From Dehalococcoidia bacterium (lineage in GTDB: Bacteria; Chloroflexota; Dehalococcoidia; Lucifugimonadales; Lucifugimonadaceae): 64,000 nucleotides of DNA. Positions 5,313-12,090 of the stretch are shown here, piece by piece. Made by a program: the position numbers and the translations under genes. The notes under the pieces are model-generated. The model was given only the letters and a program-made list of their open reading frames with translations. It made no database searches and was not told the DNA's origin. Where the stretch lies: positions 1 to 64,000 of the forward strand of contig SHXW01000002.1 in the NCBI GenBank assembly GCA_009693115.1, given 5' to 3'. Numbering within the stretch: the first letter of the stretch is position 1; each line of letters starts with the position of its first letter.

Positions 5313-5670
5313 GAGCTTTGTTCAGTAGGTGGACGGTGGCTGGCAGTGTGTCAGGAGGATGTCACGCCGGACATGGTTCAGCGCCTGTGGTGGAGGGCGG
5401 TTCCTGACCGTTTCTCCATGTACGTGGGACCGGGCCGTCAGTGTACGATGCTGCGTTGCCTGCACCGTGCGGATTATAGTGACGCCCCCTGGCCCTGCCT
5501 GGCCCGAAGCGGCCCCCGGCGCTTCCGGGACCGGCCGTGTGGCGCTCCGGAATCCACTGCCGCCGTCCGCGCCCTGCCGCCTTCATCATGAGGAACAGGG
5601 GGTGTGCCGCTCCGGCGGCGGCGGGGTAGCCTTATCCTCCTGAACCTCATCACTCCTGTGGAGACATGCC
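5313..5670. other. Intergenic region between cmk and cvpA (358 bp)
   Basis: These bases separate the divergent genes cmk and cvpA and must hold both promoters. No convincing gene, tRNA or repeat is seen. An AT-richer patch with TTATAG lies near 5472. A purine-rich GTGGAG about ten bases before the cvpA ATG is a likely ribosome site. Confidence 0.5.
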
Positions 5671-6499: not shown

Positions 6500-7105
6500 A
6501 TGTTGATCCGCCAGCCGGTTCTGGTCCTTAATCAGAACTACCAGCCGCTGAACATCTGTGATGTGAGGCGTGCTGTGTCACTGATGGCCCGCGGCAAAGC
6601 GGAGTCTCTCCTGGCTTCCGGCCAGTTTCTCCGCAGCGCGTCCGCCTATCTTGACGCTCCCGCGGTCATCCGTCTGGTGTATCTGGTCAAGCGCCCCCTG
6701 CACCGGCGCAGGATGTCCCGGCGCGAGGTCTTCATGCGTGACGGGCACAAGTGCCTGTACTGCGGCCAGAAGTCACGCGACCTGACGCTGGACCACGTGC
6801 TCCCCAGGTCGCAGGGCGGGCAACATGTCTGGGACAACGTGGTGTCTGCCTGTAAGCACTGCAACCATCGCAAGGCCGGCCGCACTCCCCTGCAGGCCGG
6901 GATGAGGCTGCTGACTGAGCCGCGCGAGCCGCGCCCGAACCCTTATTCGTTCTTTCACGCCGAAAGGGTGCAGCCCTCGTGGCGTCCGTTCCTGCCCTGG
7001 ATGGACGACAGCCCTCACCTGATCAACGGGAAGAGTCATGGCGCGAACAGCAGCCCGAACGGGGTGCGCATGAATGGCGCGCTGGCCGCTGCAGGCGCTG
7101 ACTAG
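6500..7105 (+). CDS. HNH endonuclease family protein
   Basis: A 201-residue protein of the stand-alone HNH type common in Chloroflexi, cyanobacteria and actinobacteria. The N-terminal part starts PVLVLNQNYQPLNIC. The HNH core is complete: CLYC (C85, C88), LDHVLPRSQGG with Asp98-His99, NVV with Asn113, and CKHCNHRK (C118, C121). The two CxxC pairs would bind structural zinc. The basic HRRRMSRREVF stretch before the core likely contacts DNA. The true role is unknown. The preceding 238 bp also contain an unrecognised frame of 55 codons (6320-6487). Confidence 0.87.
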   Translation: MLIRQPVLVLNQNYQPLNICDVRRAVSLMARGKAESLLASGQFLRSASAYLDAPAVIRLVYLVKRPLHRRRMSRREVFMRDGHKCLYCGQKSRDLTLDHVLPRSQGGQHVWDNVVSACKHCNHRKAGRTPLQAGMRLLTEPREPRPNPYSFFHAERVQPSWRPFLPWMDDSPHLINGKSHGANSSPNGVRMNGALAAAGAD

Positions 7106-8504: not shown

Positions 8505-9839
8505 TTACATCACAGCGGTGGCGAGCAGATCAGCGTAAGTCTCGCGCCGACGGATCAGGCGGGCCTTGCCCTTGTTGACGAGGACGATGGCCGGGCGGGA
8601 GGCCATGTTGTAGTTAGAGGCCATGGGCACGCAGTAGGCTCCAGAGGCGGGCAGGGCAAGCAGGTCACCAGAGGCTATCGCAGGGACCTTGACGTCTCGC
8701 GCCAGCACGTCGCCAGACTCGCAGAACTTCCCGGCGATGGTCACTGTCTTGACGCCGCGTGCGGCGGGCTTCGTCACGTGCGTGACTGTGTACTTCGACC
8801 CGTATAGCGCGGGCCGGATGTTGTCCCCCATGCCGCCGTCCACGGAAACGTATGTGCGGACGCCGGGGATGTCCTTGATGCCGCCGACGGTGTACACGGC
8901 GACGCCTGCGCGGCCTACGATGGCCCGTCCCGGTTCTACTGTGAGGGAAGGTTCGGGCAGGCCGTGGGCGTCGCACCCGGCGCGTACGGCGGCGGCGATC
9001 TCGCGGGCGTATTCGGCGATGGCGGGTGGCATTTTCTCCCGGATGTACCCGATGGCCATGCCGCCTCCGGGGTTGAACTCCTTCAGTTGGAACCTGTACT
9101 TCCTGCGCATCTTCGCAGCGAAGTCCAGGACGTATGCCACGGCCTGCGTGTAGGGCTCCAGCTCGAAGAGGGGAGAGCCGAGGTGGAAGTGCAGGCCGAT
9201 GACGTTCAGGTGCTCCGAGGCCGCGGCCTGTTTCACGGCCTCCTCGGCCGCTCCAGTTTCGATTGAGAAGCCGAACTTGGAATCCAGGATGCCCGTCGTG
9301 GTCAGGAGGTGGGTGTGGGGGTCAATGCTGGGCGAGACGCGCAGCATCACGTCCTGGCGTAGTTTCTTTTCCCCGGCTATCGCGTTCAGGAGGCCAATTT
9401 CATGGAAGCTGTCGATCGTGATGCGGCCGATTCCATAGTCAAGCGCTTCACCCAGCTCCTGCCGCCCCTTGTTGTTTCCGTGGAAGTTCAGGTGGGCAGC
9501 GGGGAAGCCCGCGGCCTTCGCCACGGCGAGTTCGCCGCCGGTGACCACGTCCATGCCAAGGCCCTCCTCCTCGATGACCTTTGCCAGGGCAGGGTTTGCG
9601 AAGGCCTTCGAGGAGTAAGAGACGCGGGAGTCCGGGTACTCTTTCTTGAACGCGCCGGTGAACTCGCGGCACATGTGACGGATGGTCGCTTCGTCGTATA
9701 TGTAAACGGGCGTGCCGAACTTCCCGGCGAGGTCAGCGACGTCGCACCCGCCTATGGCGAGGCGGCCCTTCGCGTTGACCTCCGCTGTGATTGGGAAGAG
9801 GCCAGCCGCCGGGAGTTTGGTCTGTGTTCTGGCGGGCAT
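8505..9839 (-). CDS. lysA: Diaminopimelate decarboxylase
   Basis: This 444-residue fold-III PLP enzyme converts meso-diaminopimelate to lysine. The PLP lysine is K78 in SYSSKAF. The glycine loop reads FNPGGGM, the phosphate-binding Arg is in EPGRAIVG, and the catalytic Cys with its acidic neighbours is in CESGD. The ATG at 9839 (MPARTQ) is preferred over an upstream codon because it has AGGACGG upstream and because the extra 22 residues look non-coding. It is divergent from selD. No lysine riboswitch is recognisable in the 241-bp gap. Confidence 0.93.
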   Translation of the reverse strand: MPARTQTKLPAAGLFPITAEVNAKGRLAIGGCDVADLAGKFGTPVYIYDEATIRHMCREFTGAFKKEYPDSRVSYSSKAFANPALAKVIEEEGLGMDVVTGGELAVAKAAGFPAAHLNFHGNNKGRQELGEALDYGIGRITIDSFHEIGLLNAIAGEKKLRQDVMLRVSPSIDPHTHLLTTTGILDSKFGFSIETGAAEEAVKQAAASEHLNVIGLHFHLGSPLFELEPYTQAVAYVLDFAAKMRRKYRFQLKEFNPGGGMAIGYIREKMPPAIAEYAREIAAAVRAGCDAHGLPEPSLTVEPGRAIVGRAGVAVYTVGGIKDIPGVRTYVSVDGGMGDNIRPALYGSKYTVTHVTKPAARGVKTVTIAGKFCESGDVLARDVKVPAIASGDLLALPASGAYCVPMASNYNMASRPAIVLVNKGKARLIRRRETYADLLATAVM

Positions 9840-10080
9840 TTGTCCGTCCTGAAGAGGAGCATGGCTGCGGGGTGGCTTGTCCCGGGCGCAACAGGGTCCG
9901 GTCATGGGGGCGCACGCGCTGGGACCACCGAATGGTAGGTTTGCGCCGAGAGGATAGTCAAACGAGGGTCAGAAAACAGCGACCCCGAAGCACGTGGCCT
10001 CTCCGGGCGAGGGACAAAATCTGTGTAACCTGTGGAACCGGAAGGCTCCGGCTCTCATTGAATTCATGGAAAGGAGAAAC

Positions 10081-11133
10081 ATGGCAGACAGCGTGCGCCT
10101 GACCGGCCTGGCCGCCTGCGCCGGTTGAGCGGGTAAGTTCAGCCAAAAAGAACTGTCGCAGGTCCTGCGGCAGCTGCCACCGCCCTTCAGGGACCCCAAC
10201 GTCCTTGTGGGCGCCGAAACCGGAGATGACGCTGCTGTCTACCGGCTGGGGGAGGCTGTCGCCCTCGTGCTGACGGTGGACTTCTTTCCGCCGATCGTTG
10301 ATGACCCTTACGCATACGGCCAGATTTCCGCCGCCAACTCCATCTCGGACGTTTACGCAATGGGCGGGCGGCCCATCGCCGCGCTGGCCATAACAGCCTT
10401 CCCGCGTGACCTGCCGCCGGAGGTGCTCGCGAAGGTGTTGGCGGGAGGGGCGGACAAGGCGGCCGAGGCGGGGATAGCCATCATCGGCGGGCACACGGTG
10501 AACGATGCTGAACCGAAGTACGGTCTCGCCGTGATAGGGACGGTCAGGCCGGGAAGCCAGATAACGAATGCAGGCGCAAGGCCCGGAGACTTGCTCATTC
10601 TGACGAAGGCCATTGGCACCGGGGTCATTACAACGGCGGCGAAGAACAGCCCGAGGGAGCCAGGGCCTGCGGCTTTGAAGGGCGCCATAGAGTCCATGTC
10701 GCTGCTGAACCGGGGCGCCGCCGAGGCGATGGTGGCGGTGGGCGTGAACGCGGCGACGGATGTGACGGGCTTCGGTCTGACGGGCCACCTGCACGGGATG
10801 ATGCTGGGAAGCAAGACTGCGGCGCGTATTTTCACGGGCAGGGTGCCGCTGCTGGCCGGGGCAAGGGAGTTGGCCCTGGCGGGGTTCGTCGCAGGCGGGA
10901 CGGTGCGCAACATGGAAGCGGTGGCGCACGCGGTGACGTATCACCCCGGTGTGCAGGACATTGACCGGACGCTGCTTTCGGACGCCCAGACCTCCGGCGG
11001 GTTGCTCATTTCCGTGCCGGCTGCGAAGGCAGGGGCGCTGGCGGCCGAACTCAATAAGCGCGGGGCGCCCCATGCCGCGGTGGTGGGTGAAGTCATCGGA
11101 GGCGAGGCGGGCCGGATCTTTATCGAGCCGTGA
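10081..11133 (+). CDS. selD: Selenide, water dikinase (selenocysteine-containing SelD)
   Basis: SelD makes selenophosphate from selenide and ATP. The frame from the ATG at 10081, preceded by the strong ribosome site GGAAAGGAG, runs through an in-frame TGA at 10126-10128 into the SelD body. Read as selenocysteine (U16), the motif AGUAGK has the U-x-x-K spacing of the active-site Cys/Sec and catalytic Lys (K19). Metal and ATP residues follow in GAETGDDAAVY and in the GGHTVND and TDVTGFGLTGH blocks. The total is 350 residues, normal for the family. A bacterial SECIS hairpin lies just after the UGA. An automatic caller would start it wrongly at 10207. Confidence 0.95.
10126..10128 (+). other. Selenocysteine UGA codon of selD
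   Basis: The TGA is in frame with both the ATG at 10081 and the long downstream SelD frame, and falls exactly on the active-site Cys/Sec position of the family. The nearby hairpin supports recoding. Confidence 0.93.
10153..10173 (+). promoter_or_regulatory. Bacterial SECIS element in selD mRNA
   Basis: A nine-pair stem (CTGTCGCAG with CTGCGGCAG, one G-U pair) closes on GTC, giving an apical GCAGGUCCUGC very close to the GCAGGUCUGC tip of the E. coli fdhF SECIS. The loop starts 33 bases after the UGA, within the spacing I recall for bacterial SECIS elements. SelB should bind here and deliver Sec-tRNA. Confidence 0.88.
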
Positions 11134-11148
11134 GGGTCCGAGAATAGA

Positions 11149-12090
11149 TCAGCCGGCTCCGGTCTGTTTCCACAGGCGCGCCAGTTTTCTGGCAGGTACG
11201 CCAGCGAGTCCCGGACTGCCGGGATTCGCCAGCCTCTCCGCCCGTTTCACCCGGTCTCTGAAGCGCAGCGCCACGGCCCTGAGGGCAGTCTCCGGGTCAA
11301 CGCCCTCGCTGTGAAGTCGCTGCACGACCGCCCACAGATAGGCCCCGGCACGGGCCTCCTTCTGTTCGGCTGACTCGTCTTTGAGCGACGCGAAATCCGG
11401 CTCGCCGTCCCATGTCAACCCGGCCTTCGAGGCCCTGCGCTGGAGTGTCGCAGCAAAGGCGAGGGCGGGCATCCCCGAGGGGATGCTGTCCACGACTGAG
11501 TCCCGGCCGCCCTCTTTTTTCTTGATGGTCTCCCATTGGCCGGCGACCTCTCCGGCAGTGTCCAACTTCATGTCCCCAAAGACGTGCGGGTGGCGCCGGA
11601 CGAGTTTGGCGATGAGTGCGGAGAAGAGGGTCTGGGTGGTGAATTCGCCGTTGCGGCGGGCAATGTCGGTGTGGAAGGCGATGTGGGTCAGGAGGTCGCC
11701 CAGTTCCTCGGCGAGTTTCGCAGGGTCGCCGGACTCTATGGCTTCCAGGGTCTCGTAGGTTTCTTCAAGCAGGTGCTGGCGCAGGGAGGCGTGTGTCTGC
11801 TCCCGGTCCCATGGGCAGCCGCCGGGGCCGCACAGGCGGGTGACCACGGCCATGAGTGCGTCGAAGGTGTCACCGGAGGGAGTGGTGGCCTGGGGCCGTG
11901 CGGGTTTTTTGGGATTTGCTGGGAGGGTCCGAGCCTTGTCGTCACCATCCGCAAGCGGGTACCCGCCCTTTCCCACCGGGAGAGGGGAGGATGGATTGCC
12001 TCCGTCGCTCCTGGCCTTCTGCCGGGAAGCAGGGAGGGAGGATGTGTTTCGCCGGTGGGCCGCCGGTTTCGGGTTGCTGCGAGCCGTCAT
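11149..12090 (-). CDS. mazG: Nucleoside triphosphate pyrophosphohydrolase MazG
   Basis: The catalytic part is typical MazG: CGPGGCPWDREQTH near residue 92, then the EExxE metal helix LLEETYETLEAIE and AEELGDLL, and a second MazG half with KLVRRHPHVFGD and WETIKKKE. It hydrolyses NTPs and dNTPs to NMPs for nucleotide sanitation. The annotated ATG follows the TAA of the TPR gene with no gap, suggesting an operon. The first 75 residues are unlike MazG and include a dispersed repeat (11958-11987) also found inside polA. The real start could be further in. Confidence 0.9.
   Translation of the reverse strand: MTARSNPKPAAHRRNTSSLPASRQKARSDGGNPSSPLPVGKGGYPLADGDDKARTLPANPKKPARPQATTPSGDTFDALMAVVTRLCGPGGCPWDREQTHASLRQHLLEETYETLEAIESGDPAKLAEELGDLLTHIAFHTDIARRNGEFTTQTLFSALIAKLVRRHPHVFGDMKLDTAGEVAGQWETIKKKEGGRDSVVDSIPSGMPALAFAATLQRRASKAGLTWDGEPDFASLKDESAEQKEARAGAYLWAVVQRLHSEGVDPETALRAVALRFRDRVKRAERLANPGSPGLAGVPARKLARLWKQTGAG
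11958..11987. repeat. Family A repeat, in frame in mazG
   Basis: GGTACCCGCCCTTTCCC followed by GGGAGAGGGG. The left arm matches the polA copy at 41612 in 16 of 17 bases. It encodes part of the extra N-terminal segment of MazG without breaking the frame. Confidence 0.7.

Follow-up and report, generated by a model that had tools for sequence, protein, structure and literature searches.

The window, a 64,000-nucleotide stretch of DNA from a Dehalococcoidia bacterium that very probably belongs to the SAR202 group, an uncultured lineage of Chloroflexota, carries at 10081..11133 on the plus strand a gene for selenide water dikinase (selenophosphate synthetase, SelD), which stands alone between a divergent lysA (8505-9905) and a convergent mazG-like gene (11149-12090). 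Its reading frame runs from ATG 10081 through a single internal TGA at 10126-10128 to the terminal TGA at 11131-11133, and read-through translation yields a product of 350 aa with selenocysteine (Sec) at residue 16. This product is matched by the SelD model TIGR00476 over residues 6-316 (E 9.6e-109; 363 bits against a curated cut-off of 125), and the E. coli SelD structure 3u0o aligns with it from end to end (E 6.2e-72). The strong ribosome site described in the initial annotation is present as AGGAG at 10072-10076 (+), 4 nt upstream of ATG 10081, and its position favours this start over an alternative in-frame ATG at 10066. In a mechanically made list of open reading frames the gene begins at GTG 10207, with the loss of exactly the 42 codons that routine gene calling had been expected to drop.

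The in-frame UGA codon and its conservation

Alignment with E. coli SelD places the Sec UGA codon (10126..10128, plus strand) at the position equivalent to Cys17, with U16-A-G-K19 of the window protein opposite C17-G-C-K20. The Cys17 site and the lysine at +3 form the catalytic pair of SelD. The two enzymes are homologous over their full length and have the catalytic lysine in common, whereas the E. coli gene encodes Cys17 without a UGA. The in-frame UGA falls where homologues carry Cys, as expected of a bacterial selenoprotein, and the earlier proposals that this gene encodes a SelD that is itself a selenoprotein, with UGA exactly on the active-site Cys/Sec position (U-x-x-K), are supported.

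Conservation of the codon was followed in a set of 80 genomes, in which the genome of the window was joined by 79 others of the same family and order. A TGA followed by two residues and a lysine was found in 64/64 of the relatives' SelD copies spanning the site, the window's own copy being additional to this count, and no sense codon corresponding to 10126-10128 appeared among them; the sole SelD without the TGA site, L036, is interrupted by a contig end ahead of it. When the recoded protein was aligned with Sec- and Cys-type SelD of 80 named genomes from many phyla, only Sec or Cys codons were found at the site (TGA in 64, TGC in 15, TGT in 1). The uniform TGA among relatives, together with the restriction to TGA, TGC and TGT across the named genomes, excludes a sequencing error as the origin of the TGA at 10126-10128. 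A pair of Sec-type SelD genes is present in each of two genomes from the order, G051 (L040 and L043, whose site regions are nearly identical) and G050 (L062 and L068).

In a codon-usage scan of TGA-bridged frames in the window, selD ranked fourth. The three frames above it were rejected as recoded genes: those at 5324 on the minus strand and 47490 on the plus strand are followed directly behind the TGA by a normal ATG start codon, and read-through of the one at 1265 (+) is without domain support past the stop. The last follows an FG-GAP repeat protein (29-1267, +) ending at TGA 1265, beyond which a further 101 codons are free of stops and resemble coding sequence. The window also encodes a small HNH endonuclease (201 aa; 6500-7105, +) to which models of IscB and Cas9d also match, with scores under the respective cut-offs.

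A predicted SECIS hairpin downstream of the UGA

A bacterial SECIS hairpin is predicted from fold and covariation at 10153..10173 on the plus strand (CUGUCGCAGGUCCUGCGGCAG), with arms at 10153-10160 and 10166-10173 and an apical GGUCC at 10161-10165. It folds at -12.8 kcal/mol (z -4.8), a value equalled by 0/200 shuffles, and can be drawn with either nine pairs around GUC or eight pairs around GGUCC, the loop starting 32-33 nt after the UGA. A published model of the bacterial SECIS describes an apical loop of 3-9 nt with a G in the first two loop positions, a stem of 4-16 bp, a spacing of 16-37 nt and a minimum free energy of -7.5 or lower (PMC13188914). The SelD hairpin lies within all of these ranges, with a loop of 3 or 5 nt whose first base is G, a stem of 9 or 8 bp, a spacing of 33 or 32 nt and the folding energy given above. 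Rfam models applied at the gathering threshold returned no SECIS match in the window and found only a tRNA-Ser.

Comparison among relatives indicates that the stem is maintained by compensatory changes. When the SelD of the window was set beside 30 others from relatives, giving a diverse set of 31 sequences, pairing held in 78% of stem cells and was missing in about 22%. Stem cells changed on both sides number 27 against 9.0 in shuffles, with 0/500 shuffles as high, and the stem scores 0.353 for covariation, compared with 0.173 after shuffling and no more than 0.128 when the stem is slid as a control. Over 64 distinct sequences, an average of 6.58 of 8 pairs is observed where a synonymous-codon null gives 5.00 of 8 (sd 0.13). 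For the window alone, 4.8% of draws from the same null already form all eight pairs (P 0.048), a mild signal that is probably accounted for by the encoded peptide LSQVLRQL, which favours CUG/CAG pairing. With a window-only P of about 0.05, single-sequence folding is weak evidence, and the case therefore rests on the comparative data, which are strong.

The initial annotation had likened the hairpin closely to the SECIS of E. coli fdhF. The nine pairs, the apical GGUC and a plausible distance from the UGA all hold, and in both elements GGUC caps a stem that follows the UGA; the resemblance does not extend to the spacing or to the upper stem. The fdhF loop begins 18 nt after the UGA, whereas that of the window's selD lies 14 nt further, at 32 nt, and the unpaired, bulged U in the upper stem of fdhF has no counterpart in the SelD hairpin, whose loop is GGUCC or GUC.

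Selenocysteine machinery and a second selenoprotein gene

The source genome assembly (2.02 Mb, 95.6% complete) contains the partner genes that a selenoprotein would imply: a full-length selB on contig C6 (C6:9254-11098) and a selA (C22:774-2105), both over their family cut-offs, and a tRNA-Sec gene with anticodon TCA (UCA) at C16:19717-19810. The predicted presence elsewhere in the genome of a SelA/SelB/SelC system is thus matched at the level of genes, and the system may be expected to work. A second match to RF01852 over cut-off, at C34:59692, is a tRNA-Ser(GCT) rather than a second tRNA-Sec. Within G000:C16:19717-22455 the tRNA-Sec gene adjoins a second formate-dehydrogenase-like gene, a frame of 943 aa with no internal stop in the match. 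A selenouridine role was also considered, and a search of the genome for SelU/YbbB found none, which agrees with a report that Chloroflexi are without the selenouridine trait (PMC1794560).

A formate dehydrogenase gene, FdhA, on contig C19 has a TGA at its catalytic site (NNIDNCSRTUHAPTVAGL) and a hairpin with a core in common with that of SelD, GTCGCNGGTCYNGCGG (GUCGCNGGUCYNGCGG). The core occurs exactly at these two sites only in the 2.0 Mb genome, the pattern having been written from them so that its exact matches arise by construction; further copies were sought genome-wide, and only one-mismatch matches were seen, at a rate no higher than that of a reversed-pattern control. The two hairpins differ at the closing pair, where A-U is replaced by C-G with both sides changed, and at one loop base. 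As the cores are read in different frames, their likeness is not due to a shared peptide.

It is almost certain that 10081-11133 encodes a Sec-type SelD in which UGA is used as selenocysteine, which is the best explanation overall. An ordinary Cys-type SelD in which a TGC or TGT has become TGA by sequencing or assembly error would be only one base away, and Cys-type enzymes do occur in other phyla (16/80); however, an error would have to recur in every one of the 64 relatives' copies, which come from other assembled genomes, and would leave the conserved, covarying hairpin unaccounted for, making this reading exceedingly improbable. Hardly more credible is a pseudogene, or a true protein that begins at GTG 10207 without its N-terminal part. 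The mechanically called frame does start there, but the 42 codons ahead of it align with SelD of known structure, contain the catalytic site, are conserved in relatives and are preceded by the ribosome site, which lies ahead of 10081.

Read-through of UGA as another residue, such as Trp or Cys, in place of SelB-directed Sec insertion has a precedent in the discussion of UGA-containing SPS1 genes of insects (PMC4561486). Against it stand the presence of selA, selB and tRNA-Sec, the conserved hairpin with its core repeated in FdhA, and the finding that only Cys replaces Sec at the site among the named genomes. Other genes in the window terminate at TGA, so general recoding is not at work, and the chance that the codon is read in this manner is very slight.

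With the gene, its UGA codon, the covarying hairpin, all partner genes and a second selenoprotein gene observed directly, the known pathway would have SelB-GTP carrying Sec-tRNA(UCA) bind the hairpin just 3′ of the UGA, and selenocysteine would be inserted at residue 16 in place of termination. SelD would then convert selenide, with ATP, into selenophosphate, and SelA would draw on this selenophosphate to make Sec-tRNA. SelD would thus depend on the very compound it produces in order to be synthesized.

Distribution among relatives and comparison with known systems

Among the 80 genomes, selB over cut-off was found in 62/64 genomes with SelD and 2/16 without it, and selA in 58/64 and 2/16, respectively. 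Joint absence of SelD, SelA and SelB falls largely in the small-genome genera g5 and g6 of the family. One genome, G076, has selA and selB but no SelD was found in it, which may be explained by genome incompleteness. It seems rather likely that SAR202-type Chloroflexota widely possess and retain Sec decoding together with a Sec-type SelD that depends on itself, and that genera of this family with small genomes have lost SelD, SelA and SelB as a set. The open literature searched seems to contain no report of such a distribution.

Sec-containing SelD is a textbook case, among the best-known and commonest of bacterial selenoproteins, and the genus Dehalogenimonas, from which one is known, belongs to the class Dehalococcoidia. 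In a reference set published in 2015, Sec-type enzymes accounted for 19% of all SelD, with Sec always at this position (PMC4561486). Dehalogenimonas alkenigignens is reported to have tRNA-Sec, SelA, SelB, and Sec-type SelD (DEALK_04975) and FdhA with putative SECIS elements downstream (PMC4918011); its SelD is the same enzyme with an in-frame UGA, and no mechanistic difference from the window's SelD was found, although the lineage differs, the window very probably belonging to the SAR202 group. A study of sponge symbionts covering bins from various phyla, SAR202 bins included, reports SelA and SelB in most of the bins (PMC5649159). Among the openly accessible papers searched, none connects SAR202 with selenoproteins. 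Sec-type SelD is thus long known and already reported in the same class, and what is new is the lineage only, which is apparently unreported.

The understanding of selenoproteins is unchanged by this SelD, and annotation without recoding loses its catalytic N-terminus. The evidence indicates that the SAR202-group bacterium examined here decodes UGA as selenocysteine, so that the Sec trait is now recorded in one more lineage, together with a case of its joint loss in small-genome relatives.
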